Source of the DNA: a virus
Strand: one strand, 5' to 3'
DNA: 64,000 bases
IMG/VR virus record: IMGVR_UViG_3300021963_000067
Coordinates: 1 to 64,000 of that record
Part shown: positions 33,543 to 63,355 of the stretch, in pieces
Layout: the number at the start of each line of letters is the position of its first letter
Position numbering within the stretch: the first letter of the stretch is position 1
Position numbers and translations under genes: made by a program
The notes under the pieces: model-generated
Seen by the model: only the letters and a program-made list of their open reading frames with translations
The model's database searches: none
Told to the model about the DNA's origin: nothing

Positions 33543-33550
33543 TATAAATA
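33543..33550 (+). promoter_or_regulatory. Late promoter TATAAATA before the DUF3050 gene
   Basis: A perfect late octamer ending 7 nt before the ATG at 33558. No Shine-Dalgarno sequence in the intervening AGTGATC. Confidence 0.65.
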
Positions 33551-33557
33551 AGTGATC

Positions 33558-34349
33558 ATGAAACTGCCATTAGGTAAAATCCAAAATCTACAAACTCAGT
33601 TAGAGAATCATCCTCTTCTAAACGACAACGTTATCAAAGACATAGACGGTCTTCGACTGTTTATGGAACATCACGTGTTTGCAGTTTGGGATTTTATGAG
33701 TTTAATTAAAGGACTGCAACATCATGTGTGCCCTAGCACCACATGCTGGACTCCAGGACACCATATACGTAGTGGATCGGCAAGATTGGTTAATGAAATT
33801 GTGTTAGCCGAGGAAACAGATATTGATCTCGATGGAGTAAGTTCTATAAGCCATCACGATCTCTACTGTCAGGCAATGTTAGAAATTGGTGCTGATGCTA
33901 ATTTAATAGAAGAATGGGTTGAATCAGTAGAAGTAAATGGATTTCATGGAGCTAAAGAATACTGTTCAGTGCCTACTGCAAGTCTTGAATTTATGGAAAA
34001 AACTTTTGAATTTATTGACTCCGGTGAACCACATGTTATTGCAGCCGCATTTTGTTTTGGAAGAGAAACTGTTATTCCAAAGATGTTTGCCAGTCTATTA
34101 ACAAAATTAAAATTAAGTAATTTTGATTGCCCTAAGTTTTTTTATTATCTATCTCGGCACATCGAAATCGACAGCGAAAAACATGGACCAGCAAGTATAG
34201 CCCTTGTTGAGGATTTGTGCAATCATGATCCGGTACATATTCATGAAGCAGAGCAAGCGGCTCTGATAGCTCTTAAAGCAAGAATTAAACTTTGGGACGA
34301 TCTACACAAACTAATTCAGGAACAATCGCATTTATATACTCATGACTGA
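33558..34349 (+). CDS. DUF3050 protein, heme-oxygenase-like diiron-type fold
   Basis: The 263-residue helical protein matches DUF3050: FMEHHVFAVWDFMSLIKGLQ (near residues 34-53), an AAFCFGRETVIPKMF helix (about 172-186), and YYLSRHIEIDSEKHGPASIA (about 200-219). The last two supply E/H and H-x-x-x-D-x-x-x-H-type residues that occupy the metal positions of heme-oxygenase-like diiron oxygenases. Members of that superfamily oxidise fatty acids or amino-acid-derived substrates in natural-product pathways. The gene opens the accessory island and converges on the radical-SAM gene. A GTG 6 nt upstream is an alternative start. Confidence 0.8.
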   Translation: MKLPLGKIQNLQTQLENHPLLNDNVIKDIDGLRLFMEHHVFAVWDFMSLIKGLQHHVCPSTTCWTPGHHIRSGSARLVNEIVLAEETDIDLDGVSSISHHDLYCQAMLEIGADANLIEEWVESVEVNGFHGAKEYCSVPTASLEFMEKTFEFIDSGEPHVIAAAFCFGRETVIPKMFASLLTKLKLSNFDCPKFFYYLSRHIEIDSEKHGPASIALVEDLCNHDPVHIHEAEQAALIALKARIKLWDDLHKLIQEQSHLYTHD

Positions 34350-35812
34350 GGATCACCTATTAGTTCATAATAGTATTTGCGTAAGAAATTATTCCTCATT
34401 TGGCCCAATGCATTCCAATCGATGTCCACAACTTTATATTTTTGATATTCCTCTATATCTAAACCAAAGCTACCTACTGACATCAATGACCAAACATTAA
34501 GTTTTTGATACTCTTTAGCCTCATTGACTAATTGCAAGCGCCATTCTCTGGCGGTAATTGCATCGCAATATTCAGTTCTCCACACATACCTACCTTCTTT
34601 CATTTCCCAGGTGAAGCCGTACTTTTCTGCATCTCGGTCAAATTCGCTACGATGCTCGTCGTGAGCATCTTTATAAACTGTAAGATTTTGCCACACCCAC
34701 GACGGTATTTTATTTTCCATTAGCCATTTGTTTGTATTTTGACAATCTTCAAACGTTTCGGGCGGTATCCCACAGATAAATGCCGAAGTGATTGTAATTT
34801 TCTCTTTCCATTTATCGTGATACAATTCTACTAGATAATCTTTTGAACTTCTACCAATCCACGATTTACCAATTAATTTAGCAGCGTCTGAATTAAAACT
34901 TTCTATTCCAAGAAAAGCTCCCTTAAGACCGTTTTCTAATAACATATCAACTGACTCAGGATATGCAGCCAGTAAATCTATTCGTAAATATGTTGCGTAA
35001 TTAATTTTAAAAGGCAATGTTTTGACCATATCGGTGAACGCCCGAAGTCTATCTTGATCAGCATTGAAGGTATCATCTAGCATATAGTAGTTGGTAACAC
35101 CCCAATTTTCGTAATTGCTGATAATTTCTTGTTTAACACATTCCATGTTTCGATTGAAATCTCGTTTACTTTTTCCTATATACGGATATCGACAAAATTT
35201 ACATTTAAAAATACAACCCCTCCCTAATTCAAGGGGCAACGTCTCTGTTGGTTGTATGTAATCATTTTTACTCCACTGATGATCACATGCTTCTATATCA
35301 AAAACTTTACCATCAGGCACTGCAAAACTTTCTCTAACAGTTCGATTGCCTTCAATGATTTCGAATTGAGGATGTGAAGTATTTTTGGACAAATGATCTA
35401 ACAATGATAAGACATGCTGTTCTGTATGTCCCAAAAAAACATAATCAAACAAAGTTTTGTTTCTATGCAGTCTGCTAAAATGAGGAGCTGCCGGACTTCC
35501 TACAATTCGTTTAATTTGAGGGTATCTTTTTTTAATTGTAAAAAATACACTTTCTATTTTTTTAATTATTTCACCATTTGCTGGATCTTTAAGATCCATC
35601 ATAACGCCTAATCCAATTATTTTAGTTTTTGGAGTAATATGCGATTCTAATATTTTAATAATTTGGTGTTCAGTAAAAAAGTGAATGAAGTCGACAACCT
35701 GTATATCATACCCGTGCTTTCGTAAATACCAAGCAACTTGATAACTACCCAGAGGTCTAAAAATATTTGTTTTATTAACAGATACGCAGCAAGTTAGAAA
35801 TATAGCATCCAC
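34340..35812 (-). CDS. Radical SAM protein with B12-binding-like N-terminus
   Basis: The radical-SAM cysteines are C200, C204 and C207 (GRGCIFKCKFC). Residues 1-150 have the alternating strand-helix layout of a B12-binding domain (YQVAWYLRKHGYDIQVVDF, KTKIIGLGV, IKRIVGSPAAP), but I do not see the base-off DxHxxG histidine motif. LGIESFNSDAAKLIGK near 298 is typical of the class-B barrel. Such enzymes methylate or rearrange unactivated carbons and need a [4Fe-4S] cluster. The GTG start at 35812 lies 5 nt after a late box. It is related to the second radical-SAM gene at 42557. Product unknown. Confidence 0.88.
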   Translation of the reverse strand: MDAIFLTCCVSVNKTNIFRPLGSYQVAWYLRKHGYDIQVVDFIHFFTEHQIIKILESHITPKTKIIGLGVMMDLKDPANGEIIKKIESVFFTIKKRYPQIKRIVGSPAAPHFSRLHRNKTLFDYVFLGHTEQHVLSLLDHLSKNTSHPQFEIIEGNRTVRESFAVPDGKVFDIEACDHQWSKNDYIQPTETLPLELGRGCIFKCKFCRYPYIGKSKRDFNRNMECVKQEIISNYENWGVTNYYMLDDTFNADQDRLRAFTDMVKTLPFKINYATYLRIDLLAAYPESVDMLLENGLKGAFLGIESFNSDAAKLIGKSWIGRSSKDYLVELYHDKWKEKITITSAFICGIPPETFEDCQNTNKWLMENKIPSWVWQNLTVYKDAHDEHRSEFDRDAEKYGFTWEMKEGRYVWRTEYCDAITAREWRLQLVNEAKEYQKLNVWSLMSVGSFGLDIEEYQKYKVVDIDWNALGQMRNNFLRKYYYELIGDPQS

Positions 35813-35839: not shown

Positions 35840-35847
35840 TATAAATA
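35840..35847 (+). promoter_or_regulatory. Late promoter TATAAATA, 7 nt from ATG
   Basis: A perfect late octamer, then TTCTATC and the ATG at 35855. No ribosome-binding site. Confidence 0.65.
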
Positions 35848-35854
35848 TTCTATC

Positions 35855-36328
35855 ATGTTCATTATCACTTTATTCGAATACATATTCTATTTCGGCCTCT
35901 GGACGTTTATTCTATACTGGATACATCGTGTAGGACACCAAGTAAAATTTTTATCAAGTCTTCATCGACAGCATCATAAGTTTGTTAGAGAAAATACAAT
36001 CACTTGGCATTGGTCAAATATATTTTTATTCAACGATAACTGGCCTAGTACATTCGACTTCTGGGTCACAGAAGTAATCCCTACTGCAATATTTGTAATA
36101 ATAACACAACAGTGGTGGTTGGGAATTGGATTTTATCTGTATGCAGCCTTTGTTCAAGAATGGCTAGAACACAATGATAATTTTAATTTTTACCCTATTT
36201 ACACCTCGGGAAAGTGGCACCTACTGCATCACACACAGTATCCATGTAATTACGGAATTGGTACACCGTTTTGGGATTGGGTATTTAACACTAATAAAAT
36301 ATTAGATAACGCTAGACATTCGATTTAA
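35855..36328 (+). CDS. Fatty acid hydroxylase superfamily membrane protein
   Basis: Three histidine clusters of the sterol desaturase/fatty acid hydroxylase family are in order: HRVGH (24-28), HRQHH (37-41) and HLLHH (about 126-130). Hydrophobic segments surround them (residues 2-22 and about 75-95). These integral-membrane diiron enzymes hydroxylate or desaturate lipid chains. At 157 residues the protein is short for the family (usually 200-300), lacking extra N-terminal helices, but all His boxes are intact. It is the only gene on its transcript; its end overlaps the convergent 124-aa gene by 27 bp. Confidence 0.88.
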   Translation: MFIITLFEYIFYFGLWTFILYWIHRVGHQVKFLSSLHRQHHKFVRENTITWHWSNIFLFNDNWPSTFDFWVTEVIPTAIFVIITQQWWLGIGFYLYAAFVQEWLEHNDNFNFYPIYTSGKWHLLHHTQYPCNYGIGTPFWDWVFNTNKILDNARHSI

Positions 36329-36676
36329 TCTATCTCGAACATTTAGGTAGTCATCAACTGGATATATTTCAATAGTTCTAGTCCATCCTTTTTCTGCAAA
36401 AAAATTCCTTGCTCCGATGCTTATAGGATGATTACTAAACTCATTAAGATCGTTAGCAGTCTTAAAAAGAATATAGCTTTCCAGTACACATCCATCATTC
36501 CTTAAGATTAAAAATCTATCGAGAGCTTTTCCCTGGCGGATAAAATCTCCAGCTAACGCTCTAACTCCTGTACCTTTTTTACCGGCCAACTGCTCTTCCA
36601 TATCTTTATAATAAAATTCATCTACGGTTTTTGCGTTTCTATCTTTATGTGTAAGAGTTACTTTTTGCATTATCAT
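36302..36676 (-). CDS. Small protein, possible dimeric alpha/beta-barrel, 124 aa
   Basis: The C-terminal half (RFLILRNDGCVLESYILFK, then a helix FSNHPISIGARNFFAEKGWT) has a strand-helix-strand layout like dimeric ferredoxin-like (ABM-type) proteins. The same layout occurs in the 104-aa protein at 46552. No catalytic residue can be named. It overlaps the sulfotransferase stop by 4 bp (ATGA-type), so it is co-translated with it and may act on the same substrate. Confidence 0.55.
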   Translation of the reverse strand: MIMQKVTLTHKDRNAKTVDEFYYKDMEEQLAGKKGTGVRALAGDFIRQGKALDRFLILRNDGCVLESYILFKTANDLNEFSNHPISIGARNFFAEKGWTRTIEIYPVDDYLNVRDRLNRMSSVI

Positions 36677-37419
36677 AATTCTAATTCCTTTAATACGTAT
36701 TCGGGCAAAGCCGAGTAATGATATTTTGAACAGTGTACTTCTTCTAGAATAAATGTTTTCAATTCGTCAAAATTTGTAATATATTTCTCGATCGAATCTT
36801 CTGTATAATTTACAGAAAAAGATATTTCTTTTTTAAAATAGTCATTAATTTTTTTAAAACTTATATCTTTACCGATCATGTCTTCAAGATAAATTTTTTC
36901 AATTAAACTAGCATGATGGTGTCCTACATTTTCGCTCCACCAATAATCTCTACAAAGATTTTGAAAAATTACAAAAATTCTTCGGCGTTCTCTATTTGAT
37001 CCATCGTAATAAAACGGCTCAAATCTTTTTGAAGACCCTTGAAAATTTTTGTTATCGATAGCTATCAACATGCTTGTTAACACTTTCCAGATATTTCTTC
37101 TCAACATTAAAAAAATAGATAACTCATTCTCGTTAATAATAGATGATATATCAGTGTGCCACGATAAAAAAGTTTTAAATCCAAAATATTCGTGCCCATT
37201 TTTTTCTTTAAAACTAATCATTTTTTGAGTTATAGCATTATGATCAAACATGTTTGATTTAAATATGTTTGATGTTTGAGAAATAATCGAAGGATTGAAC
37301 GGTTCTGAATTTGTAAATTCTGGAATCCAGATATTAGAATAACTATTCAATGTATTACAAAAAAATGTAGTCCCACTTCTCGGTGTACCTAAAATTATAA
37401 AATTTGTTGAGTGTGCCAT
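36673..37419 (-). CDS. PAPS-dependent sulfotransferase
   Basis: The 248-residue protein has the 5'-phosphosulfate loop ILGTPRSGTTFF (residues 9-20), the best marker of the family, and a 3'-phosphate-binding LRRNIWKVLTSML near 105-117. It would transfer sulfate from PAPS to a hydroxyl or amine on a small molecule, lipid or sugar. It lies back-to-back with the operon carrying an APS-kinase/nucleotidyltransferase fusion, which could supply PAPS. The late box is 5 nt before the ATG. Acceptor unknown. Confidence 0.85.
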   Translation of the reverse strand: MAHSTNFIILGTPRSGTTFFCNTLNSYSNIWIPEFTNSEPFNPSIISQTSNIFKSNMFDHNAITQKMISFKEKNGHEYFGFKTFLSWHTDISSIINENELSIFLMLRRNIWKVLTSMLIAIDNKNFQGSSKRFEPFYYDGSNRERRRIFVIFQNLCRDYWWSENVGHHHASLIEKIYLEDMIGKDISFKKINDYFKKEISFSVNYTEDSIEKYITNFDELKTFILEEVHCSKYHYSALPEYVLKELEL

Positions 37420-37461: not shown

Positions 37462-38694
37462 ATGAAAATTTTAGTGATAGGAAATCGATCAGTGAGCCAT
37501 CACATGGCGCTACGAATGTCTAAAGAACCCGGAGTCTCAAAAGTTTATCACTACGGAGCCCCTACAAGTTTTCAAAAAGAAAAATACGTTCCTATTTTAA
37601 AAAATAGTGATACATCGGCACTACATTATGCATCCTTGTTAGATTTAGATTTGATTGTACCCTGTAATCCAATCTATCAAATGCAAGACGAATATCAATC
37701 AACATTTTGTAAATTAAAAATCCCCACTTTGTTTCCGTCAAAACAAAACGGCGAACTAGAGTTTTCAAAAATAAAATTTAAAACATTATTGCAAGAACTG
37801 GGGATTCCTACTCCTAGTTATCAAGTACTTTCATATGATATACTAATTGATTCTTTTTTTGATATTCCTAGACCATTTGTTTTTAAATTTGATCAAGATC
37901 ATCGAGGAGGCTTACAAACAGTTATTGTAAATGATGACAACGTTGTAGACGAATATAGGGTATTAAAAGACTCCGGTAAACAACGTTTTTTGGAATTCAT
38001 GTTAGGGGATTTTATAGATCAAAAATTTATAGTAGAAACTTTTATAGATATTGTTCGAGAGTATTCGTACCATGTCTTATGCAGTAAAGATAATCATGTT
38101 TATTTAGGTTCGGCTCGCGACTATAAAAAAAATAATGATGGGGACATTGGAATTAATACTGACGGTATGGGGTCTTACGGGTCAGTGGCCGCAGACAAAA
38201 TTATTGATGAGTATGTAATTAAAATTTTAAATTACCTTAAAAATAACAATAGTGCTTATGTGGGTATAATGTATCTTGGAGTTGCTCTAGATCATACAGG
38301 AATTCCGATGATATTAGAAATTAATACTCGGACAGGTGATACAGAATTTCATAATATACTTCCTCTTATTAACAACAATGTATCAGAACTATTCTATAAT
38401 GCTGCTGTAAATAAACCTTTAGAACCAATAGAGTTTTCTAAAGATAAATCTGTAGCAATTAGAATTGTTAAATCCGATGCAGAAAATAAGAATGATTATT
38501 TTTTTACAAGATTTAAAAATATTCCGTCGGATATTTGCGCATATCAGAGCGGTATTTTAAATGATAAATTTCAAGGAGTATTGACCACTACGGCTGCAAC
38601 TGTAGATCAAGCTAGTGATAGAATTTATTCTTATCTTAATAGTATCAATACATCAAATTTTATTTTTCGATCAGACATTGGATATCTTAAATAA
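37462..38694 (+). CDS. PurD-like ATP-grasp ligase
   Basis: The 410-residue protein follows the layout of glycinamide ribonucleotide synthetase (PurD): an N-terminal GNRSVSHHMALRMSK Rossmann start, FVFKFDQDH near 150, DYKKNNDGDIGINTDGMG (about 225-242; compare the D-G-D-x-G-x-N-T-G-G-M-G of PurD) and ILEINTRTGDTEFH (about 292-305; compare E-F-N-x-R-F-G-D-P-E). ATP-grasp enzymes form amide bonds through acyl phosphates. Divergence from PurD and the neighbours suggest recruitment to another amide-forming step rather than purine synthesis. It heads the operon with the APS-kinase fusion. Confidence 0.85.
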   Translation: MKILVIGNRSVSHHMALRMSKEPGVSKVYHYGAPTSFQKEKYVPILKNSDTSALHYASLLDLDLIVPCNPIYQMQDEYQSTFCKLKIPTLFPSKQNGELEFSKIKFKTLLQELGIPTPSYQVLSYDILIDSFFDIPRPFVFKFDQDHRGGLQTVIVNDDNVVDEYRVLKDSGKQRFLEFMLGDFIDQKFIVETFIDIVREYSYHVLCSKDNHVYLGSARDYKKNNDGDIGINTDGMGSYGSVAADKIIDEYVIKILNYLKNNNSAYVGIMYLGVALDHTGIPMILEINTRTGDTEFHNILPLINNNVSELFYNAAVNKPLEPIEFSKDKSVAIRIVKSDAENKNDYFFTRFKNIPSDICAYQSGILNDKFQGVLTTTAATVDQASDRIYSYLNSINTSNFIFRSDIGYLK

Positions 38695-38710: not shown

Positions 38711-39505
38711 ATGACACAAAGAATTTTAATAATGGGTTTACCCGGATCAGGCAAAACTTATCTTGCACAACATATTGTAGATCATCTACAAGCAGAAAAA
38801 AAACGGGTAGGATGGCTCAATGCCGACGATGTACGTAAAAAATATAACGACTGGGATTTTAGCCATGAAGGGCGTATTCGTCAAAGTTTACGTATGCGTG
38901 AACTAGCAGACAGCATGCCAGATGTTGATTATGTTATATGTGATTTTGTTGCACCATTAGTTGAAATGCGTAATAATTTTAAAGCAGACTGGACTATATG
39001 GGTTGACACTATTCGTGAAGGTCGGTATGCAGACACTAATGCTATGTTCATTGAACCCGAAGTATATGATTTTCGTATCACTGAACAACAAGCAGAAAAA
39101 TGGGGCGAGTTTGTTGCCGCACATATTATAGATAATCGTAGACGTCCTGTATTTGATTGGAAAAAAGAAACTGTACAAATGCTTGGACGTTGGCAACCAT
39201 GGCATGACGGACATCGTGCATTGTTTGAAAGATTGTTGGCCAAGACTGGGCAGGTAATTATTCAGGTGCGTGATGTACAGGGCTGGCAAGGAAGTAATCC
39301 GTTTGAAGTTGCTAAAGTTAAGAGTTTTATTAAACATGATTTAGATCCGTTATATCAAGGACAATATGAAATACAAGTGGTTCCTAACATTGTTCATATT
39401 GGTTGGGGCCGTGGGGTAGGATACACAAGTGGCGAAGAAACATTTGATGAAAAAGTAACTGATATCAGTGCTACAAAAATTCGTAAAGAATTAGGCTTAA
39501 AGTGA
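38711..39505 (+). CDS. APS-kinase-like / HxGH nucleotidyltransferase fusion
   Basis: The N-terminal 145 residues resemble adenylylsulfate kinase: P-loop GLPGSGKT (9-16), GWLNADDVRKKYNDWDFS (34-51), R-x-R pattern and TIWVDT. The C-terminal 105 residues hold HDGH (165-168) in GRWQPWHDGHRALF and ISATKIRKEL near the end, the HxGH and I-S-x-T-x-I-R pair of NMNAT- and ATP-sulfurylase-like transferases. If the second domain is ATP-sulfurylase-like, the protein would make PAPS from sulfate; if NMNAT-like, it would act in NAD metabolism. The adjacent sulfotransferase favours sulfate. AGGA precedes the ATG. Confidence 0.82.
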   Translation: MTQRILIMGLPGSGKTYLAQHIVDHLQAEKKRVGWLNADDVRKKYNDWDFSHEGRIRQSLRMRELADSMPDVDYVICDFVAPLVEMRNNFKADWTIWVDTIREGRYADTNAMFIEPEVYDFRITEQQAEKWGEFVAAHIIDNRRRPVFDWKKETVQMLGRWQPWHDGHRALFERLLAKTGQVIIQVRDVQGWQGSNPFEVAKVKSFIKHDLDPLYQGQYEIQVVPNIVHIGWGRGVGYTSGEETFDEKVTDISATKIRKELGLK

Positions 39506-39579
39506 ACAAATATCACGTTAGATTCAACACCAAGCATAACGGTAGTTCGTTAGTTTGGAGAATCTTTGACAAAGATTAA
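39502..39579 (+). CDS. 25-residue ORF or gene remnant, GTG start
   Basis: GTG at 39502 overlaps the stop of the APS-kinase fusion (GTGA) and opens a 25-codon frame, NKYHVRFNTKHNGSSLVWRI then FDKD. The coupled start and compositional fit suggest translation. The peptide reads like the first strand-turn-strand of a longer protein cut short, so it may be a remnant left where the island was inserted. It overlaps the convergent SDR gene by 4 bp. Confidence 0.4.
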   Translation: MNKYHVRFNTKHNGSSLVWRIFDKD

Positions 39580-40340
39580 ATGGTAACTAACTCGCCACCG
39601 TCGAGATAGATACAAGATCCGTTTATATAACTTGACCTATCAGAAGCTAAAAACAAAACACTATCTGCTACTTCTTTAGGTTCTAAAATTCGACCTATAG
39701 GAAATCTTGCTTTGGCTTTTTCTAATTCTTCCTCTATTGTTGTATTGTTCATTTTACTATGAACTTCTAATTGACGTGTTAACATATCTGTATTAGTGGC
39801 GACAGGATTTACGCAATTAATTCGAATGCCTTTACCGACATAAACGTTGGCCATTCCCATACTGGAAAGAATTAAAGCTGCATTAGCAGCGCCGCCTGTT
39901 AAGTGCGAAGCTACAGCTACCTTGCCACCGTAGCCAATAACATTTACAATAGATCCGGACTTCATTACTTCAAGGGCTGCATACATTGAATTAATATAGG
40001 TAAAAAATTTTGATTGCATTGCATCAAGATAGTTATGAGAGTCAACTTCTAGTGGAGCCACTTTTTTAGCAGCACCTGCACAATTTACTAATACATCAAT
40101 AGGACCATTATTTTCTACTGCGTTCTGTACCATTATCGATGCTTGATCTCGATCTTTGAGATCAACTTGAATAATATGAACATTTCCTAACAATTTTTTA
40201 GCATTGGAAAGATGTTCAATATTTCTCGAAGCAATAGTAACTTTTGCACCTTCTTCTAAAAAAGATTCAGCGCAGGCAAATCCAATACCTTGACTTCCGC
40301 CTGTAATTAAAACGTGTTTATTTTTGAGGTGTAAGTCCAT
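39576..40340 (-). CDS. SDR-family protein with altered active site
   Basis: A classical SDR Rossmann fold: TGGSQGIG cofactor loop (14-21), VNCAGAA (about 85-91), INCVNPVATNTDM and a C-terminal GSCIYLDGGELV. At the place where YxxxK normally lies the sequence is SHLTGGAANAALI, so neither the catalytic Tyr nor Lys is present, although the cofactor-binding part is intact. It may act as an isomerase, epimerase partner, or non-catalytic binder. It overlaps the 2OG-like gene by 34 bp and closes the minus operon 2OG, TctC, 2OG, SDR. Confidence 0.8.
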   Translation of the reverse strand: MDLHLKNKHVLITGGSQGIGFACAESFLEEGAKVTIASRNIEHLSNAKKLLGNVHIIQVDLKDRDQASIMVQNAVENNGPIDVLVNCAGAAKKVAPLEVDSHNYLDAMQSKFFTYINSMYAALEVMKSGSIVNVIGYGGKVAVASHLTGGAANAALILSSMGMANVYVGKGIRINCVNPVATNTDMLTRQLEVHSKMNNTTIEEELEKAKARFPIGRILEPKEVADSVLFLASDRSSYINGSCIYLDGGELVTI

Positions 40341-40945
40341 GTTATATGTTCCGGTGGAGTATCTCTACTAATTTGAATTGCAAGCCTGGGTCCTTTTACA
40401 TTTTCAACTGAATGTAAAATATTTGCATGTAGGCATCCCCACTTGCGTAGGGGCAATCTAACTCGATCAATTTCTTCTACACGATCATAACTATCAATGG
40501 TGGCGTGTGGGTCAAAATTTGATCTTAGATCTGGACGCACAATGTCTCGTCCTTTTTCTCTGTACCAAACAGTTTCGACATTATCACCACCTAAGTCTAA
40601 AAGGTATTGCACGGTAAAGTTTCTACTGGCATCAACGTGAGGAGCCAACGCAGGTCCAACATTATCAAATATGGATATTCCGCACCCCTTGGGTTCTTGT
40701 TGAAAGTATTCCCGTACCCAGTCTTCAAATTCTGTGCTGATCGCATATCTATGTGTGCCTGCGGTAGTAAATGTAGATCCATCTTTGGCTGTAATGGTTC
40801 TATATTGATAGTCGCTGTATCCAGGCAATTGTTTAAGGGCGTTAACTCTATTTTGTTCTGCACGATCCTCCAAGGCAGTATAGGCAGCATCTATAATCGA
40901 TTGCGGGGGATCAGGAAGGTCAAGATAACCGTAGGTAAACATCAC
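40307..40945 (-). CDS. 2OG-Fe(II) oxygenase-like protein, 212 aa (family A)
   Basis: APHVDASRNFTVQYLLDLGG (about 109-128) gives H-x-D, and HSVENVKGPRLAIQIS (about 179-194) gives the distal His and the 2-oxoglutarate-binding Arg. It is a close paralogue of the proteins at 62690-63328 and 41903-42493, all starting M-F-T/I-Y/W...L-P. The layout, with H-x-D in a double-stranded beta-helix core, is that of peptide or amino-acid hydroxylases. Its start overlaps the TctC stop by 4 bp. Substrate unknown; the co-operonic TctC gives a weak hint of a dicarboxylate link. Confidence 0.8.
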   Translation of the reverse strand: MMFTYGYLDLPDPPQSIIDAAYTALEDRAEQNRVNALKQLPGYSDYQYRTITAKDGSTFTTAGTHRYAISTEFEDWVREYFQQEPKGCGISIFDNVGPALAPHVDASRNFTVQYLLDLGGDNVETVWYREKGRDIVRPDLRSNFDPHATIDSYDRVEEIDRVRLPLRKWGCLHANILHSVENVKGPRLAIQISRDTPPEHITWTYTSKINTF

Positions 40946-42493: not shown

Positions 42494-42516
42494 TGCTATT
42501 CCTTTTATTGGCCTGT

Positions 42517-42524
42517 TATTTATT
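42517..42524 (-). promoter_or_regulatory. Late-type box AATAAATA with leader
   Basis: The box at 42524-42517 gives a roughly 18-nt leader with AAGGA before the ATG at 42493. Back-to-back with the GATAAATA box at 42541-42548. Confidence 0.5.
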
Positions 42525-42540
42525 AGGCTCTGCTGCTGGC

Positions 42541-42548
42541 GATAAATA
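42541..42548 (+). promoter_or_regulatory. Late-type box GATAAATA, 8 nt from ATG
   Basis: GATAAATA is followed by TTTTCCTT and the ATG at 42557. No Shine-Dalgarno sequence. Confidence 0.55.
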
Positions 42549-42556
42549 TTTTCCTT

Positions 42557-49936: not shown

Positions 49937-49950
49937 GGTAAAAATGTTTG

Positions 49951-49958: not shown

Positions 49959-49962
49959 TTTC

Positions 49963-50670: not shown

Positions 50671-50671
50671 T

Positions 50672-51786: not shown

Positions 51787-51787
51787 C

Positions 51788-55814: not shown

Positions 55815-56417
55815 TTACATGGTAGGCCCGTTTCCGTTCCTAAACCCCACTGCACCGCCTTCTGCTTCAATACGCTTTAACACATCTTCAAACAATATGG
55901 GCGCAAAGTCTGGTGTTTGTTCTACGCATACACAATGATATCTAGGATCGATTTCATCGCCGTATAAAACATCACCGGTTTTAGCATCAACTCCACGGGC
56001 CTTACGCACTCGATTTGAGTGTAAATGTCCATGAATGTTAACTCCAAAGCGTCCTAAACTATCGCTATGTACAGGAATGTGACTTAAGATCATTCCGTTC
56101 ATAACATGATAAGCACGTAATTCACGAAAGTGAGCACGATAGTCCTCGTCCTTAAAGATATCGTGGTTACCACGGATCAACACCTTGTCCCCGTTTAATC
56201 TGCGCATAATCGCCAACGCTTTACGGTTAATAACAACATCACCTAAATGGTAGACTTTGTCAGTGGGTTTAACTCGTTCGTTCCACGCTTTAACCATTGC
56301 TTCGTCCATTTCGTCTGGATCTGTCCACGGCCTTAATTTTTCACCGTCATTACGAGTAAACTTACATACGCCCGTGTGACCAAAGTGAGTATCGCTTACT
56401 AAAAATACACTAGGCAT
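55815..56417 (-). CDS. Calcineurin-like metallophosphoesterase
   Basis: All metal-binding blocks are present: SDTHFGH (8-14), HLGDVVI (about 57-63), RGNHDIF (about 81-87), a SHIPVH block (about 111-116) and HGHLH (about 128-132). The 200 residues fit the single-domain phosphodiesterases. It may cleave phosphomonoesters, cyclic nucleotides or nucleic-acid ends. It shares an early-type operon with a tyrosine-phosphatase-like gene and a small protein, and a strong terminator follows. AAGGAG lies before the ATG. Confidence 0.9.
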   Translation of the reverse strand: MPSVFLVSDTHFGHTGVCKFTRNDGEKLRPWTDPDEMDEAMVKAWNERVKPTDKVYHLGDVVINRKALAIMRRLNGDKVLIRGNHDIFKDEDYRAHFRELRAYHVMNGMILSHIPVHSDSLGRFGVNIHGHLHSNRVRKARGVDAKTGDVLYGDEIDPRYHCVCVEQTPDFAPILFEDVLKRIEAEGGAVGFRNGNGPTM

Positions 56418-56428
56418 ACTATTCTCCT

Positions 56429-56896
56429 TTATTCAATAGATTTAAATGTTCGCCAATCATCAATGTTTGGCTTTTCGTTTTCATCGTATGTCCAACCCAA
56501 TGCTTTCATCATGCGATGCTTGACTAGTAGGTTAGGACTACGGAATCTTTCTGTATCCTGAAATCCCATCATCACACCTACTTCACATACTGCACCCGAT
56601 CTGCAAATTCCAGCAAAACAGTGAACAACCACATTCATACGATTGTCCAAGGCATGTTGCAGTAAACGAACTAACTCTGCGGCCTGCTCATGACTGCACT
56701 TCATAGCTTCTTCAAGAACATGGTCCTTTTCTTCTACATCCAAAAACTCAAAGTCATGACGCTCTTTGAATTGGTGCTTGGCGTCCGGCCGCCAACTTGC
56801 TGGATCAACAATGCTGATCAGCATACTGTTAGGGCCGGCATCGTGATGAAATCCTGTTGGAATATCACTTGCAGCTACGTTTTCAATCCACGGCAT
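56429..56896 (-). CDS. Dual-specificity/tyrosine phosphatase-like protein
   Basis: The cysteine-phosphatase signature H-C-x5-R-S is at residues 92-100 (HCFAGICRS), preceded by VVV and within a 155-residue alpha/beta layout. A candidate general acid lies near FLDVEEKDH (51-59). It should dephosphorylate protein Tyr/Ser/Thr or a phosphorylated small molecule. The ATG overlaps the previous stop (TAATG), and a metallophosphoesterase follows, so the operon looks devoted to early dephosphorylation, perhaps of host regulators or alarm nucleotides. Confidence 0.85.
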   Translation of the reverse strand: MPWIENVAASDIPTGFHHDAGPNSMLISIVDPASWRPDAKHQFKERHDFEFLDVEEKDHVLEEAMKCSHEQAAELVRLLQHALDNRMNVVVHCFAGICRSGAVCEVGVMMGFQDTERFRSPNLLVKHRMMKALGWTYDENEKPNIDDWRTFKSIE

Positions 56897-57123
56897 TATA
56901 CACGCTCCTTTTTCATTCGGCCAATTCTACTGGCTTTGTTCCAATCGTAGATAACGCCATCTGGACATTTGCCATCGATCACCGAGTCAACTCCAAACTT
57001 ACCTACAATTTCAAATTCGCCGCCTTGTATGGAAACGAACACATTCAATTCTTTGGCGAATGCCATAGCCAAATCTAAGTTGGCAAATTCTGTTTCTTTA
57101 TTTTTGTCTATTACTTTATACAT
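56896..57123 (-). CDS. Small hypothetical early protein, 75 aa
   Basis: From the ATG at 57123 (MYKVIDKNKETEFANLDLAM) this 75-residue protein has a strand-helix-strand start and a basic end (KASRIGRMKKERV). No family recognised. A longer frame to 57138 would start inside the promoter. The ATG is 6 nt after a perfect TATAAT, so it is probably leaderless like the gene at 23428. Together with the phosphatase genes it forms an early operon embedded in a late island. Confidence 0.6.
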   Translation of the reverse strand: MYKVIDKNKETEFANLDLAMAFAKELNVFVSIQGGEFEIVGKFGVDSVIDGKCPDGVIYDWNKASRIGRMKKERV

Positions 57124-57129
57124 GCTGTT

Positions 57130-57158
57130 ATTATACAACCTTTAGCCCAATTTGTCAA
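57130..57158 (-). promoter_or_regulatory. Perfect sigma-70 early promoter, leaderless position
   Basis: TTGACA (57158-57153), a 17-bp spacer and TATAAT (57135-57130) match consensus; AACAGC then leads to the ATG at 57123. The expected start point is the A of the ATG. Confidence 0.85.
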
Positions 57159-57200: not shown

Positions 57201-58430
57201 TCAATAGTATTCGACAACTATTCCGGAAACAAAGTTTCGATATTTTTCTTCTACATCGTCCGGTGTACTGCCTGTGAAAATAGCCCAACCGTTATTAAAA
57301 ACTGAGAGATCATTTCTTACCATTTGTATCTTTCCTTTTGGAAGACTTACTACATCTGCAAGGTTGTTTTCTTTAATTTCTATATGTTGAATTTCTTTCT
57401 TTTCAAAGGGCAATTGTCTGAATAAAACAGATTTATTAATTGATAGAGTATAGTCAATTCCATGCAACAACTTGTTAATTAATTTATATCCGTAATCTTT
57501 TTCCCCGGCATGCCACATTAGTGTATGAGATACAGATAACCTTGGAGAAAAATCAATAAAGTGTATCTTATTATTTTTGTCCACTATTATGTCAAGCATA
57601 AATGGACTGTTATCAAATTTTATTTTGTCAAAGAATTTTTTTAGATACTGTGTTGTTTTATCTTGTAATAATCTACTGGAATATTTTGAAGGATATTTCA
57701 ATCCAGTTTCCGCCGCATAAGGATAAGATGTTGATTCGATATCGAAAATAAAATCAAAATATATTTGCTCTTTATAAACATGCCCAATAAAAGAAACAAC
57801 ATCGCCCTCGACATATGTCTGAATCATATACTCATGCATACCTGAGCAGTATTGTAATTTTTTATAATTGACTCCATGCGTTTCCTGATACTTATGGAGT
57901 TGTTCTTCGGTATCAGCAAAAAAATCTATTAGCGATTGCTGATCCTCAATAATTTGTATTCCTACACTAGCGGTGCCAACGCTAGGCTTTACTATGCAAG
58001 GATATTTTATGTTTTTAGGAGGAGTAGATAATGTCTCGCAAGATTCTAAAGTATCATATAACACAGGAAACGGTATTTGTAGTTCATGCCATAAGTTATA
58101 ATAACCTATTTTACTATTAATTAATTTTGCAGTATCTGGAGAAATTCCGTGTAAGTTAAATTTTTTATTAAGTTCAGCAACAACTAATATTGACCGGTCG
58201 CCAAATGCTGGAAAAATACAAGCATAATTATTTTTTTCAAATAAGTGTTCTACAGTTTTTGCAATGCTATTAGTAATGTGTCGATTGGGATATAAACTTG
58301 TAAGTTTATTTAATATTTCAAATTGCATAGCACTTTCCGGAAGTATTACATCAACTTCAACTCCGTGTTGCAACAAATTATCTAAAATAATTAAATTATT
58401 GTAATTAACCAATAAAAATAAAAGTTTCAA
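57201..58430 (-). CDS. Carbamoyl-phosphate-synthase/biotin-carboxylase-type ATP-grasp ligase
   Basis: The 409-residue protein has an N-terminal Rossmann-like region (LLFLLVNYNNLIILDNLLQH), an ATP-grasp core with YPCIVKPSVGTASVGIQII (about 143-162), and a catalytic loop PFMLDIIVDKNNKIHFIDFS (about 275-294) followed by R. ATP-grasp ligases of this group activate carboxylates and join them to amines. The start is uncertain: the frame opens with TTG at 58430 and has no ATG for some distance. It follows the TctC and PP-loop genes on the minus strand. Confidence 0.82.
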   Translation of the reverse strand: MKLLFLLVNYNNLIILDNLLQHGVEVDVILPESAMQFEILNKLTSLYPNRHITNSIAKTVEHLFEKNNYACIFPAFGDRSILVVAELNKKFNLHGISPDTAKLINSKIGYYNLWHELQIPFPVLYDTLESCETLSTPPKNIKYPCIVKPSVGTASVGIQIIEDQQSLIDFFADTEEQLHKYQETHGVNYKKLQYCSGMHEYMIQTYVEGDVVSFIGHVYKEQIYFDFIFDIESTSYPYAAETGLKYPSKYSSRLLQDKTTQYLKKFFDKIKFDNSPFMLDIIVDKNNKIHFIDFSPRLSVSHTLMWHAGEKDYGYKLINKLLHGIDYTLSINKSVLFRQLPFEKKEIQHIEIKENNLADVVSLPKGKIQMVRNDLSVFNNGWAIFTGSTPDDVEEKYRNFVSGIVVEYY

Positions 58431-58466: not shown

Positions 58467-59357
58467 TCAATTTGATAGAGCGATGACTGCATTTTTAATT
58501 AATTGTTCTACAGGTTTACGACCAAATTCATTTAACTCGTTAAATTCTCGTATAAAGTCCGCTTGTACAGATCGATCACTCATATATTCTTTTAAAAATT
58601 GTGACCAAAATTTTTCTGCTGCCGGATCGGTATTTTTTGGAAGAATGAATGTAAATGCGTCAACGTCTTGCCAGCCTGGAAGAATACTATTTACAGTAGG
58701 TACATCGGGATATTCTTGTAGACGCTGATTACTGCCAACAGCAATTAATTTAATTTTTCCCGAGTCAATCATTGCCTTAGAAATTAATAATGGTGGGGCT
58801 CCAAATTGAACGTGTCCTCCAGCTATATCTTGTACTAACGGTGCACCGCCTTTATACGGTACCCAGACAAAATCAGGTTTTTTCTTAGACAGTTCTATAA
58901 ACTTTTCTAACAACATTCTTTGTCCGGGTGCACCGAAACCCACTGTTACAGTACCTTTGTACAAGTCTTGAATAGAATTGATCCCGCTATTTTTATGAGT
59001 AATATAGGCCGAAACACTATTTCTAACAGCAGTTACAGTATCTAATTCTGCAGTTGGATTTTTTATTCGTTGTGTTGCAATTGTCCCAACAGTGCCAAAT
59101 GATATATGATACCCGTCTTTAGGCATACCGGCAATTTCATTCATACCAATAAGCCCTTCAGCACCTGGCCTATATAATGGTGTAAAATTTAAACCTTTCT
59201 TGGTTGCATATTTTTCAAAGTGTCTAAATGTTTGATCTACACCTCCACCTGGAGCAAACGGTATAACAACTGTTATAGGTTTAGATGTAGGGTCGAATGC
59301 ATATGCATTTGTAATTGTTAAAATTAACAGTGATACAAAATATTTTAAAATTCTCAT
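58467..59357 (-). CDS. TctC/Bug-family periplasmic solute receptor (second copy)
   Basis: Signal peptide MRILKYFVSLLILTITNAYA, with cleavage likely after AYA, then ITVVIPFAPGGGVDQTFRHF (about 28-47) and VWVPYKGGAPLVQDIAGGHV, the hallmarks of Bug receptors. It is about one-third identical in alignment with the receptor at 40942 by eye. Such receptors bind mono-, di- or tricarboxylates in the periplasm; no transporter partner is encoded. An AATAAATA box (59386-59393) and a GAGG 11 nt upstream give a conventional leader. The ATP-grasp gene follows. Confidence 0.92.
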   Translation of the reverse strand: MRILKYFVSLLILTITNAYAFDPTSKPITVVIPFAPGGGVDQTFRHFEKYATKKGLNFTPLYRPGAEGLIGMNEIAGMPKDGYHISFGTVGTIATQRIKNPTAELDTVTAVRNSVSAYITHKNSGINSIQDLYKGTVTVGFGAPGQRMLLEKFIELSKKKPDFVWVPYKGGAPLVQDIAGGHVQFGAPPLLISKAMIDSGKIKLIAVGSNQRLQEYPDVPTVNSILPGWQDVDAFTFILPKNTDPAAEKFWSQFLKEYMSDRSVQADFIREFNELNEFGRKPVEQLIKNAVIALSN

Positions 59358-59425: not shown

Positions 59426-60583
59426 TTAGAGATCACCTAGATAGTAAGGAGGAGACATGATCCATTTATAGGCATTCGGTTGACCGTTTGGATCTAAGAA
59501 CAAAAAATCTTTATCAATATTGTCTAATTGATTTTGATAATAGTACTGCCAGCGATCTACTAGAGAGCTAAATTCGGAATTGTCATAAAACCAAAAATCT
59601 TTGTCCTTTCTAAATCCGCCAGGCTTTGCAGCTTGGAATCGATTAAAGTTCCAATACGGATAGCAAACATCTTTGATAATTTCACTGCAAATTCCATAGT
59701 GCTGACTGGTGTTGATAAACTGTATTTTGTCAGGATTAGACTTAAACCATAAAAATAGTTGGTGGGCCATTTCGTAGGCAAGCAACGGCATGTCCGGAGT
59801 CCAATAAAAATACTCTACATTATTTGAATCGCTGTTTACCGGAACAGCATTTTGTATAAGATCATCTCGAAAATAAAAAAATACCTGATTACCTTCAGAA
59901 TTTTTTCTAAGATAGGGTTTATCAGTACCCCAAATTGCGGCCACACGTTTTCCTTGATCTAACAAATTAATTTCTGTATCTGAGTAAGACTGCATTCTTA
60001 AAAAATTTACAGCACTATGCATGTGATTCTGTGTAGTAAACAAATCATCGTTATACAAATTTGAGTTTGCACGTTCTAACCAATCAGCAGTTATGATTTT
60101 TATTTCAGGATGATGAGTTCTTAAATATTCTAAATCTGGCTTAATAACATAATCCCATTCACTGACAAAATTGTTTGCTCCTGTATCTGTAGAATTAGGT
60201 TTATAAATTCCGTTATCTAAAATTTTATAAGGCCACCTAACAAATACATAATCTAATTTAATATTGTTTTGCAAAAAAGTATGTAAAATGTTGTGGCTAT
60301 CAGATCCACCACTGTAATATAAAATTAATTCATCGTAATTGTCTCTAAGTTGTTGCGCTCGTTCTTTATATAATGTTTTTAATGGAATTTTCCCTAATAA
60401 ATCTTTATTAAAGTTTTTAAAGGTGTCATGATACCACAGGTACCAAACTACACACAGCAATCCTTGTTTACGTAGTCGAGTGGCTTCTAATAGAGCTTGA
60501 ACTTTATTTTTATGGGATGAAATTATTTTGTTTGTATCGGAATGGCAAACACAATACATTCCTTGATGATCTGATCTAGTCAT
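59426..60583 (-). CDS. PP-loop ATPase, 385 aa (family B)
   Basis: SGGSDSHN at 91-98 is the pyrophosphate loop, set in RAQQLRDNYDELILYYSGGS, which is nearly shared with the paralogue at 61513-62700. A middle LLDQGKRVAAIWGTDKPYL region and VEYFYWTPDMP are also shared. The protein lacks a glutaminase domain. Members of this phage-type family probably adenylate a small molecule and might act as amide or thioamide formers. The late box is 5 nt before the ATG. The two copies flank a PLP enzyme. Confidence 0.82.
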   Translation of the reverse strand: MTRSDHQGMYCVCHSDTNKIISSHKNKVQALLEATRLRKQGLLCVVWYLWYHDTFKNFNKDLLGKIPLKTLYKERAQQLRDNYDELILYYSGGSDSHNILHTFLQNNIKLDYVFVRWPYKILDNGIYKPNSTDTGANNFVSEWDYVIKPDLEYLRTHHPEIKIITADWLERANSNLYNDDLFTTQNHMHSAVNFLRMQSYSDTEINLLDQGKRVAAIWGTDKPYLRKNSEGNQVFFYFRDDLIQNAVPVNSDSNNVEYFYWTPDMPLLAYEMAHQLFLWFKSNPDKIQFINTSQHYGICSEIIKDVCYPYWNFNRFQAAKPGGFRKDKDFWFYDNSEFSSLVDRWQYYYQNQLDNIDKDFLFLDPNGQPNAYKWIMSPPYYLGDL

Positions 60584-60611: not shown

Positions 60612-61541
60612 ATGACATATAATACTGAAAATATTTGGAACAAGCTGTTAAATTTAAAAAATCTTCCGTTTGGAAGTGCATTAAGTATCTATGATCCAAC
60701 TCTTGAGACGGAGGTATCTGATATTATTTCTAAAGTATCTGCTCAGAGATGTCTAACTGATATTAACGTACAAGAAAAATTTCTTAACAGATATTATAAC
60801 TGGATACAGGAAACTCAACTCAATACTTTCAACGGATTGGAGAATTTTAAAGTTCGAGCATTTTCCAATGGAACTACTGAATCGTTTGATAAATTCTATC
60901 TTAAAAATAAACAACGTCGAATAAGATATTTTCGAGGTGAATATCTATATCACTTGGCATCGGCTAGTAGTTATTTCGATCAATCGGCATATCTTGATGA
61001 CGAACCGCTATCTAAGAATGATGTTGTCATATTCAGTTTGCCATTTGCAGATACTGGAAATGAACATCCGGAAATGAAAAAAGTATTAACTATTTGCGAA
61101 AAGTTAGATATTCCGGTCATGATCGATTGTTGTTATTTTGGAGTATGCAAAAATATTCATTTTGATTTTTCTTACAAATGCATATATGGAATAACTTTTA
61201 GTTTGAGTAAAATTTTCTCAGTACAACACTTAAGAATTGGTATGAGACTTACTAGAGAAGACGACGATGATCCGTTATTGGTCTACAATAGAAATAGATA
61301 TACTAATCGATTAGGAGCGGCTGTTGGATTTGAGTTGCTCGAACGATATGGTCCGGATTATAATCAACACACATACAGTTCTACTCAGCAGGAATTTTGT
61401 GAACAATTATCAGTGCATGCCAGCAATTGTGTGTTTTTTGCTAATAGTTCGGATAAATTTTTAGAATATAGCAGAGGAACAGCAAACAATAGATTATGTT
61501 TTTCTAGGTACCTTAAATTTGGGGAACTGCCACAGGTTTAA
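60612..61541 (+). CDS. PLP-dependent aminotransferase-fold enzyme
   Basis: Fold-type I PLP residues are in place: SNGTTESFDKF (85-95) for the phosphate loop, IDCCYFG (171-177) with D172 contacting the pyridine nitrogen, TFSLSKIFSV with the Schiff-base lysine K200, and R208 after it. The 309 residues are short for the family (about 350-420), missing part of the small domain at the C-terminus. It could transaminate or decarboxylate an amino-acid substrate. It sits between two PP-loop paralogues and its end overlaps one by 29 bp. Confidence 0.82.
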   Translation: MTYNTENIWNKLLNLKNLPFGSALSIYDPTLETEVSDIISKVSAQRCLTDINVQEKFLNRYYNWIQETQLNTFNGLENFKVRAFSNGTTESFDKFYLKNKQRRIRYFRGEYLYHLASASSYFDQSAYLDDEPLSKNDVVIFSLPFADTGNEHPEMKKVLTICEKLDIPVMIDCCYFGVCKNIHFDFSYKCIYGITFSLSKIFSVQHLRIGMRLTREDDDDPLLVYNRNRYTNRLGAAVGFELLERYGPDYNQHTYSSTQQEFCEQLSVHASNCVFFANSSDKFLEYSRGTANNRLCFSRYLKFGELPQV

Positions 61542-62700
61542 CGTAATGCCATTTAGTTTTACAAGTATTAAACAATCCTCTAACTTTTCCAGGAAGTTGA
61601 TATCCGTTAGATTCTGTTATAATAAATTTTTCATTTATCTGAGAAAGAAATTCTGAATTAACATTTATAAAAGTATTTCTTTCTAATTCAAATTCTGGAT
61701 GATTAAAAATCCAAGATTGTTTATCTGCTCGATCTGCTTGCATCGGTTTATCTGATTGAAAATTTCCGTTCCATGTAGTATATATTACTGATTTAGTAAT
61801 ATTACTTTGAATAGATATCAGAACGTTTTTTTCTTGTGGCGTTAAGTTGACGGAATCATTGTTAAAAAAGAACTGTTTTATTTCAGGATGTTGGTCTACA
61901 TAACTGCACAACACGTGAGCCTGCTCTAACGGAATATTCGGCATTTTTGGAGTCCAATAAAAATATTCGATAGAATTTCTATTATAATCCATTGCATTTC
62001 CTACTCCAACTGCTGTGTCTAAAAAACAACATAACCAGTTTCCGTTTATAGAAGCAACAATAGGTTTATCTATTCCGTAAATACATGCAACACGTTTGCC
62101 TTTATCCAACAATAACATTTCATTTTTTGATGAGGAAAGAGTGAATCCTATCTCTACATCATTCCATACATTAGCTTTTCTAAAATTATCCTCAACATAA
62201 ATTTTAGAAGTGAAATTTTCAGACCAGTCTACGATTTCTATTTTAATTTCTGGACGAGTTTGATTTAACCAATCGAGAACTGGTTTTATAGCATAGTCCC
62301 ATTCGCTGAGATAGTTAAAGGCACTAGTGTCTATGGTGTTGGGAGTATATAGTTTTTTATCAACAGTCAACATGGGCCACTTAACACATACTTCATCTAG
62401 TTTGATATTGTTATCTATAAATGTTCTTAATATATTATAACTGTCAGAACCTCCTGAAAAATACAATATTAAATAATCATATTCATCTCTTAACTGTTGA
62501 GCTCGTTGTTTATATAAATCATTTAAATTTTGCTTGCCCAACAACGCTTTGTTATATTGTTCAAATACATTGTCATAGAAATGAAATGATATATCAGCAT
62601 TAAGCTGTGTTGCACTTGTTAAAGCATCAAACTTATTATAAAATTTGGTTCCTAATACTTTCCAAAATACATGATCATTAAATTCAAAATTATTCAACAT
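61513..62700 (-). CDS. PP-loop ATPase, 395 aa (family B, second copy)
   Basis: SGGSDSYN at 82-89 and the same LGKxxLxxLYKxRAQQLRD lead-in as the 59426 protein, with shared VEYFYWTPKMP-type and GKRVACIYGIDKP segments. Paralogy is clear. It follows a 2OG-like gene with an 11-bp overlap, so an oxygenase and an adenylating enzyme are co-expressed. No glutaminase or carrier domain is present. Substrate unknown. Confidence 0.82.
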   Translation of the reverse strand: MLNNFEFNDHVFWKVLGTKFYNKFDALTSATQLNADISFHFYDNVFEQYNKALLGKQNLNDLYKQRAQQLRDEYDYLILYFSGGSDSYNILRTFIDNNIKLDEVCVKWPMLTVDKKLYTPNTIDTSAFNYLSEWDYAIKPVLDWLNQTRPEIKIEIVDWSENFTSKIYVEDNFRKANVWNDVEIGFTLSSSKNEMLLLDKGKRVACIYGIDKPIVASINGNWLCCFLDTAVGVGNAMDYNRNSIEYFYWTPKMPNIPLEQAHVLCSYVDQHPEIKQFFFNNDSVNLTPQEKNVLISIQSNITKSVIYTTWNGNFQSDKPMQADRADKQSWIFNHPEFELERNTFINVNSEFLSQINEKFIITESNGYQLPGKVRGLFNTCKTKWHYVKPVAVPQI

Positions 62701-63328
62701 ACTTGGATTCTAATACGTTAATATGATCGGGAAAGGTATTTCTGCTTATTTGAATAGAAATCCTTGGGGAGATTATATTCTCAACGCTATGTAATATATT
62801 GGTATTTAGACAGATCCAGCGATGCTCAGGAACACGCACTCTGGCAACTTCTTGCAGTGTTGAATAATCAGTTATTGCATCAGTTAGGTTAAAATTATTT
62901 TTAAGTTCTAGTCTTTCTAACGGTTTGTTTTTTTCTTGCCACCAAACGGTATCTGCATCAGTGCCGCCAGCCTCTAAAAGATAATGAATAGAAAAGTTTC
63001 GATTTGCATCAACGTGTGGTGCAACAACATAGTCGACAGATGCTTCAAATATATTAATTCCGCATCCGATAGGATCTTGTTTAAAGTGAAGCTTTACCCA
63101 TTCTTCAAACTCTTCACTAATCCAATATCGATAACTACCTGCATTTTTTAGTTGCTTTCCTTCGTCTGTAATAACCGTTCGATTACTATATTCATTGTAT
63201 CCAGGTTGTTCTAATAATTTTGGATTCACTCTGCTTTCTCGTTGACGAGAGACTAATGCGGTGTTAGCTGCATTGATAACAGAGGCCGGTAGCTGTGGAA
63301 GATCTAAGAAGGAATAGATAAAAGTCAT
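62690..63328 (-). CDS. 2OG-Fe(II) oxygenase-like protein, 212 aa (family A)
   Basis: VAPHVDANRNFSIHYLLEAG (about 110-129) gives H-x-D and HSVENIISPRISIQIS gives distal His and Arg. It is the closest paralogue of the 40307 protein (same start MTFIYSFLDLPQLP-type, same GCGI-N/S-I-F before the core). AGGA precedes the ATG, with an AATAAATA box (63348-63355) about 20 nt upstream. It leads a two-gene unit with the PP-loop protein. Confidence 0.82.
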   Translation of the reverse strand: MTFIYSFLDLPQLPASVINAANTALVSRQRESRVNPKLLEQPGYNEYSNRTVITDEGKQLKNAGSYRYWISEEFEEWVKLHFKQDPIGCGINIFEASVDYVVAPHVDANRNFSIHYLLEAGGTDADTVWWQEKNKPLERLELKNNFNLTDAITDYSTLQEVARVRVPEHRWICLNTNILHSVENIISPRISIQISRNTFPDHINVLESKYVE

Positions 63329-63347
63329 GTGTAAATCCTATGATTCA

Positions 63348-63355
63348 TATTTATT
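63348..63355 (-). promoter_or_regulatory. Late-type box AATAAATA with leader
   Basis: At 63355-63348, leader about 19 nt with AGGA before the ATG at 63328. Confidence 0.5.

Follow-up and report, generated by a model that had tools for sequence, protein, structure and literature searches.

A 30-kb block in the genome of a T4-type bacterial virus carries about 30 intact metabolic genes. The virus is represented by IMG/VR record IMGVR_UViG_3300021963_000067 (G000; 94,777 bases), and the window analysed here comprises bases 1–64,000 of that record. We consider it roughly 60% probable that this block is a hypervariable, late-expressed enzyme-cargo locus, fixed in position beside a tail-fibre gene, which most likely serves to tailor the virion or the host surface. 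G000 is marked as T4-type by a gp9/10 N-domain in the window and by baseplate and tail families, and it encodes a subtilisin-like protein common to cyanomyophages.

A preliminary description had placed the island at 33.5–63.4 kb. The island is real, but its cargo continues to ~65.0 kb with a hydrolase and an SGNH-like gene (L003), and it is divided in two by an anchor at 54.1–57.1 kb that holds a tail-fibre-like gene and phosphatases. The guanine-plus-cytosine (GC) content of this anchor (54130–57138) is 41.7%, compared with 40.6% for the backbone and 35.1% and 32.5% for the cargo on either side. Around the anchor, the 37 genes examined fall into 14 transcription units, and the coding strand changes 13 times.

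Cargo exchange between conserved flanks

The island is a genuine part of a phage genome and its genes are functional, as the preliminary description had supposed. A contig from another metagenome (L005/L104) covers 24.4–54.8 kb of the window, including the backbone–island junction, at 85–94% nucleotide identity. Between this contig and the window, the ratio of nonsynonymous to synonymous substitution rates (dN/dS) is 0.02–0.2 across 26 genes; therefore the island proteins are maintained, and gene decay is ruled out. An assembly chimera is likewise ruled out, because this independent contig crosses the junction and a related island sits between matching flanks in a second record, G001. With carriers of such islands encoding the Gp23 capsid protein, and with no point found in its favour, the idea of a chimera or a mis-binned bacterial cluster has a negligible probability, and the non-phage relatives that would have spoken against the preliminary description did not appear.

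G001 is a 353-kb record with a T4-type Gp23 capsid and a subtilisin-like protein 86% identical to its window homologue. Its gene order equals that of G000 to either side of the island, with proteins mostly 70–96% identical in the left flank (window 1–33 kb) and mostly 68–98% identical, a few lower, in the right flank (~65–77 kb). The island between them is shorter, and its related genes are rearranged and mostly 25–70% identical, the well-kept exceptions being the APS-kinase fusion (90%) and the anchor phosphoesterase (92%). Homologues of the PLP enzyme, TctC, PP-loop protein 61513 and ATP-grasp ligase 57201 (genes are named by their first coordinate in the window) lie on the opposite side of the tail-fibre anchor, and the arrangement at 57.2–65.0 kb is lineage-specific. 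Therefore, the locus is fixed while its content is exchanged. The closer relative L005/L104 differs mainly at 46.9–48.6 kb, where the window has PP-loop 46892 and Rieske oxygenase 47758; the contig carries another PP-loop paralogue, 25% identical, and lacks a Rieske gene at that site. Across relatives, cargo families are reordered, replaced or missing. Between conserved backbone flanks, cargo is thus swapped, reordered and paralogue-replaced, one gene or a few at a time. Scattering of the gene set in relatives, which the preliminary description had named as evidence against its proposal, is largely what we found, except for small two-gene modules.

The cargo belongs to a pool shared across many T4-type phages, several of them jumbo-sized. 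Viral contigs in IMG/VR hold 16 relatives of the PP-loop protein, at least 100 of the PLP enzyme and at least 562 of the radical S-adenosylmethionine (radical SAM) protein, and island families turn up in as many as 58 locus groups; of 18 records tested, which reach 453 kb, 10 encode a Gp23 that scores above cutoff. A pattern scan of ~85,000 cellular genomes returned no relative of PLP 60612 and placed the PP-loop 61513 family on one 3-kb contig of a metagenome-assembled genome (MAG) only. When 399 genomes from a single phylum were searched with profiles, the only PLP match was weak and partial, and the PP-loop profile found that one contig again. These scans used short patterns, and a profile sample of a single phylum; from them, the view that both families are almost confined to phages appears well supported but not proven. 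The one contig, CAIVYW010000332.1 (L022), is a 3.2-kb Methylococcaceae MAG contig with three tandem PP-loop 61513-family matches, and may be a mis-binned phage contig. Among isolated phages, only Mosig carries a distant PLP relative, in a comparable island, and tblastn against the isolated-phage collection found no relatives of PP-loop 61513 or radical SAM 34340. An INPHARED desaturase match, "Acinetobacter phage MD-2021a" (CAKLQH020000002.1, L186), was discarded for its bacterial chromosome content (aspS, secA and trp genes).

Enzyme families, gene pairs and late promoters

Families were called by Pfam scans and catalytic-motif checks, the remaining 2-oxoglutarate (2OG) oxygenase calls coming from a motif scan or reading by eye. 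Most families listed in the preliminary description were recovered in this way: two radical SAM proteins (34340 with a weak B12 match), five PP-loop proteins, two ATP-grasp ligases, the Rieske oxygenase, the desaturase, the fatty-acid-hydroxylase-like protein, the adenosine phosphosulfate (APS) kinase fusion, DUF3050 and two TctC receptors. This Pfam content is indeed atypical of standard phage auxiliary genes. The SGGxDS motif is intact in all five PP-loop proteins (45464, 46892, 52286, 59426 and 61513), as are the APS-kinase P-loop and HxGH motif of the 38711 fusion and the lysine of the pyridoxal phosphate (PLP) enzyme 60612. Weaker calls are the sulfotransferase 36673, which has the P-loop and falls below the Pfam cutoff, the second of two short-chain dehydrogenases (SDRs; 44203, against a strong 39576), and most of the nine 2OG-like proteins, which are largely motif-based. 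Within that set only 52907 passes Pfam; seven others (40307, 41903, 49948, 50672, 51148, 53403 and 62690) have HxD...H, and 51788 lacks the iron-binding Asp.

DUF3050 protein 33552 scores 260 bits against a Pfam PF11251 cutoff of 22.2 bits. Its E88, H101, E172, H203, D207 and H211 do not vary among phage and bacterial members and match the diiron-ligand spacing described for DUF3050 (PMC4520260). The PLP enzyme has a weak Pfam match, but its AlphaFold model (pLDDT confidence score 95.4) matches class I/II aminotransferases in Foldseek (TM-score ~0.6; tyrosine aminotransferase, 1.1e-10), and D172, K200 and R208, the Lys/Asp/Arg active-site set of fold type I, are invariant in its family. For PP-loop 61513 (pLDDT 90.2), the good match is limited to a ~155-residue ATP-binding core (LarE, GMP synthetase and others), with no full-length structural match to known ligases (LarE, TilS, GMP/NAD synthetase; TM-score below 0.4); therefore, no substrate can be named. 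Searches of solved-structure sequences with the PLP and PP-loop 61513 profiles gave nothing useful. Both radical SAM proteins are closest to PhpK-type P-methyltransferases, at 88.9 and 78.9 bits of the 600 required by the PhpK/BcpD model TIGR04479. In a related island, a radical SAM/SPASM protein is fused to an Asp/Asn-hydroxylase-like domain (L087:11848-13341), which suggests that both domains act on one substrate.

Gene adjacency was compared with 300 shuffles of gene order, using families from blastp and community clustering and loci collapsed to 100 approximate groups (the window and G001 being one group). Radical SAM 34340 adjoins DUF3050 in 8/8 groups with both (shuffle mean 1.4, maximum 4), in three relative orientations and with DUF3050 proteins down to 53% identical. 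PP-loop 46892 adjoins the Rieske gene in 6/7 groups (mean 1.2, maximum 4). Elsewhere, radical SAM pairs with a different small oxygenase-like family (7/8). Two other candidates showed no clear excess over chance: PP-loop 61513 with TctC (8/13; shuffle maximum 8) and PLP with PP-loop 61513 (4/7; maximum 5). Fourteen bacterial DUF3050 loci were ~3.7 kb long, and no radical SAM gene stood within their short flanks. The modules argue for enzyme pairs acting together, not for a single 30-kb pathway. In 12/12 groups with both, the PLP gene is directly followed by an unnamed ~350-amino-acid family that does not occur in the window (L050, L054, L057, L060, L062 and others).

Late promoters had been noted in the preliminary description, and the T4-late-promoter-like box TATAAATA is indeed placed at start codons, though not enriched by count (7 observed in G000 versus 9.2 expected). 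Six of the seven copies lie ≤60 nt upstream of a start codon, compared with 14/133 for ten permuted motifs combined. Among 2,114 collapsed gene contexts from island loci, TATAAATA ends 4–8 nt before ATG in 36, versus a mean of 3.4 for permuted motifs; the sole higher permutation, ATAAATAT, overlaps TATAAATA itself, and the next best reaches 12. The spacing mode is 5 nt, and boxes stand directly at starts in the window (33543, 35840, 37425 and 60589) and in loci L005–L181. T4 late transcription starts ~6 nt downstream of the late-promoter box, implying by analogy that many cargo genes would yield leaderless late mRNAs. Shine-Dalgarno sequences are absent from the short-spacing class (0/32), partly by construction, because the box fills that space. 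Tail-fibre genes and others have 20–40-nt leaders, often with a Shine-Dalgarno sequence.

Table 1. Coordinates of island features in the window
Feature	Position	Strand	Evidence and remarks
T4-late-promoter-like TATAAATA	33543..33550	+	7 nt upstream of DUF3050 ATG
DUF3050 haem-oxygenase-like diiron protein	33552..34349	+	Pfam 2.6e-77; six predicted iron ligands invariant
Class-B-like radical SAM protein, CxxxCxxC	34340..35812	-	Pfam, motif; weak B12-binding match; adjoins DUF3050 wherever both occur
TATAAATA	35840..35847	+	7 nt upstream of fatty-acid-hydroxylase ATG
Fatty-acid/sterol hydroxylase-like membrane diiron enzyme	35855..36328	+	Pfam 1.2e-14; His boxes
Sulfotransferase-like P-loop protein	36673..37419	-	Below Pfam cutoff; P-loop GTPRSGTT; TATAAATA at 37425-37432
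PurD-like ATP-grasp ligase	37462..38694	+	GARS_A 1.1e-18; TIGR00877 134 of 288 bits
APS-kinase-like domain fused to HxGH nucleotidyltransferase	38711..39505	+	Pfam, motifs; 90% identical in G001
SDR	39576..40340	-	Pfam 2.6e-44
2OG-oxygenase-like, HVD...H...R	40307..40945	-	Motif scan
TctC periplasmic receptor, signal-peptide-like N terminus	40942..41895	-	Pfam 2.8e-38
2OG-oxygenase-like, HID...H...R	41903..42709	-	Motif scan
Second radical SAM protein, CxxxCxxC	42557..44203	+	Pfam, motif
Short SDR-like protein	44203..44760	+	Weak Pfam, 3e-5
PP-loop ATPase (SGGLDS)	45464..46555	+	Motif
PP-loop ATPase, NAD-synthetase-like; Rieske partner	46892..47761	-	Profile match 8.4e-9
Rieske non-haem iron oxygenase, CxH-CxxH	47758..48597	-	Pfam, motif; not at this place in close relative L005
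Fatty-acid desaturase, three His boxes	48594..49397	-	Pfam 6.1e-12, motif
Four small proteins	49948..52303	+	Three (49948, 50672, 51148) with 2OG-oxygenase-like motif; 51788-52303 without Asp
QueC-like PP-loop protein	52286..52852	-	Pfam 2.4e-9
Asp/Asn-hydroxylase-like (52907) and another 2OG-like protein (53403)	52907..54107	+	51% and 71% identical in G001
Mtd-N tail-fibre-like protein, backbone-like anchor begins	54130..55710	-	Pfam; GC 41.7%; homologue in G001
Phosphoesterase, dual-specificity phosphatase, small open reading frame; conserved anchor	55815..57138	-	Pfam, relatives
ATP-grasp ligase	57201..58430	-	Pfam 1e-11
Second TctC receptor, signal-peptide-like N terminus	58467..59357	-	Pfam 2.2e-19
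PP-loop protein, family apparently almost confined to phages	59426..60583	-	SGGxDS; TATAAATA at 60589-60596
PLP fold-type-I enzyme, family apparently almost confined to phages	60612..61541	+	Weak Pfam; AlphaFold model
PP-loop protein, family apparently almost confined to phages	61513..62700	-	SGGxDS; profile, model
2OG-oxygenase-like, paralogue of 40307	62690..63328	-	Motif scan

A small Hc1 histone-like protein is encoded at the left island edge (window 33134–33325; 1.2e-13). Elsewhere in the record, L003:2049-12292 holds 27 tRNA genes that cover most amino acids, with 2OG-like genes and a methyltransferase interspersed.

Function of the cargo

In the mechanism we propose, each cassette would bring its own late promoter and so be expressed during virion assembly wherever it is inserted, often from a leaderless mRNA. 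The enzymes concerned (radical SAM with a diiron oxygenase, PP-loop and ATP-grasp ligases, the PLP enzyme, oxygenases, desaturase, hydroxylase and the genes for sulfation of the 3'-phosphoadenosine-5'-phosphosulfate type) would most probably modify those components of the virion or of the host surface that contain amino acids or lipids. Variation of the cargo may be driven by selection for host recognition and by rivalry between co-infecting phages, which is what has been suggested for the host-recognition cluster (HRC), a hypervariable island found in pelagimyophages and cyanomyophages. Surface or virion tailoring is our preferred function, unproven and resting on position, late timing and analogy. 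Several points weigh against it: no substrate or product has been identified, the TctC receptors do not obviously fit surface tailoring, the leaderless mRNAs are deduced from T4 promoter geometry, and glycosyltransferase and lipopolysaccharide (LPS) genes, typical though not obligatory for an HRC, are absent among the cargo Pfam matches.

We infer that a small molecule ranks next and DNA hypermodification lower. A secondary-metabolite pathway would have several modules, such as radical SAM with DUF3050, the PLP enzyme and the PP-loop/ATP-grasp ligases, make a diffusible amino-acid-derived compound. The ligase-rich content, unlike that of standard phage auxiliary genes, would suit it, as would the conserved two-gene modules, the natural-product and hopanoid enzymes among the nearest named radical SAM families, the nearest structures AprD4, CysS and TokK, and the presence of DUF3050 in the Pseudomonas mgo operon (PMC3298696). 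We nevertheless think such a pathway unlikely, as Pfam identified no polyketide synthase, nonribosomal peptide synthetase (NRPS), terpene cyclase or core of a ribosomally synthesized and post-translationally modified peptide (RiPP), short RiPP precursors not having been systematically searched; every NCBIfam radical SAM match is far below cutoff (89 of 600 bits); and beyond two-gene modules the gene set is not conserved together. Given 14 alternating units, cargo that is reordered, replaced or missing, and no scaffold enzyme in the Pfam scans, the single biosynthetic gene cluster with working pathways of the preliminary description finds no support.

Modification of phage DNA bases against restriction by the PLP, radical SAM and oxygenase proteins is very unlikely. 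PLP and radical SAM enzymes do act in phage thymidine hypermodification, and related islands contain a carbamoyltransferase; yet no hydroxymethyl-dU kinase-type domain (PF18723, PF18748) was detected in 15 records, in a scan where no positive control rang, the nearby thymidylate synthase, a ThyX, belongs to the conserved backbone, and the promoters are late. Still less probable is passive accumulation, in which a recombination hotspot gathers host genes that have no selected function: hypervariable content, low GC and mosaic swaps could be so explained, but the low dN/dS largely refutes it, catalytic motifs are intact, promoters are positioned at start codons, and two families appear almost absent from cells. 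A wider reading of surface tailoring or small-molecule synthesis, which we offer tentatively, is that a reassorting pool of enzymes for specialised metabolism, without close counterparts in cells (PLP 60612, PP-loop 61513, radical SAM with DUF3050), is common property of T4-type jumbo phages. Each lineage would draw leaderless cassettes with late promoters from this pool and put together a chemistry of its own.

Comparison with known systems

A literature search on phage-borne biosynthetic clusters gave nothing matching. In its categories of enzymes (Rieske, sulfotransferase, APS kinase, 2OG, SDR) the island recalls natural-product clusters of bacteria, a likeness that was set aside for want of a scaffold enzyme. 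With the Pseudomonas mgo operon the island shares one homologous family, the DUF3050 haem-oxygenase-like MgoB; in mgo it accompanies an NRPS and an AurF-type N-oxygenase (PMC3298696), whereas in the phage its partner is radical SAM. In the metabolic island of Pelagibacter phage Mosig EXVC030M (MT647606), runs of genes for a MoaA-like radical SAM protein, an Asp/Asn-hydroxylase-like protein and a carbamoyltransferase stand beside tail fibres, together with an aminotransferase 22.6% identical to PLP 60612 and a desaturase (30.6% identical). However, tblastn detected neither the PP-loop 61513 nor the radical SAM 34340 family in the isolated-phage collection, and the remaining cargo of Mosig differs.

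The HRC of pelagimyophages and cyanomyophages is a sizeable hypervariable region where tail-fibre genes stand together with metabolic genes and radical SAM cassettes, and to which cassettes have been added gradually (PMC7029224). The present island is likewise a large non-syntenic island of a T4-like phage, with conserved flanks, a tail-fibre gene (Mtd-N, 54130–55710) and metabolic genes. Radical SAM cassettes are the unit by which close HRC genomes differ, and cassette divergence is gradual in both. As to the HRC position between VrlC and the neck gene gp14, no VrlC was recognised with the libraries employed here, and gp14 was not seen in this 94.8-kb fragment. Curli genes occur in the same phages in both cases. 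Outside the window, a curli-type operon (L004:7668-14993; G000 ~85.7–93.0 kb) encodes CsgG (2.3e-45), CsgF (8e-9), FecR, a CHASE2-cyclase and a pair of repeat proteins, of which one matches Curlin_rpt marginally. CsgG is present in 7/15 records tested, and a curlin-like protein similar to that of G000 lies near CsgG in five other records (85% identical in G001). Pelagimyophage and methylophage curli loci were reported without CsgA/CsgB (PMC7029224, PMC9004378), and such repeat proteins are therefore candidate fibre subunits.

The published HRC cargo stresses glycosyltransferases and LPS genes, whereas PP-loop, PLP, radical SAM/DUF3050, Rieske, desaturase, TctC and 2OG-like genes dominate here. 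Accounts of T4-like hypervariable islands have so far centred on tail fibres and LPS genes; this locus, of the same type, holds dozens of selected, catalytically intact enzymes, with recurrent pairs and start-codon-fused promoters. Whether phages run a late-stage specialised chemistry of their own thus becomes directly testable, with the two-gene radical SAM–DUF3050 module as the entry point. On our best reading, the island is HRC-like in its working and in the main tested features, but draws on a different, largely phage-specific gene pool.

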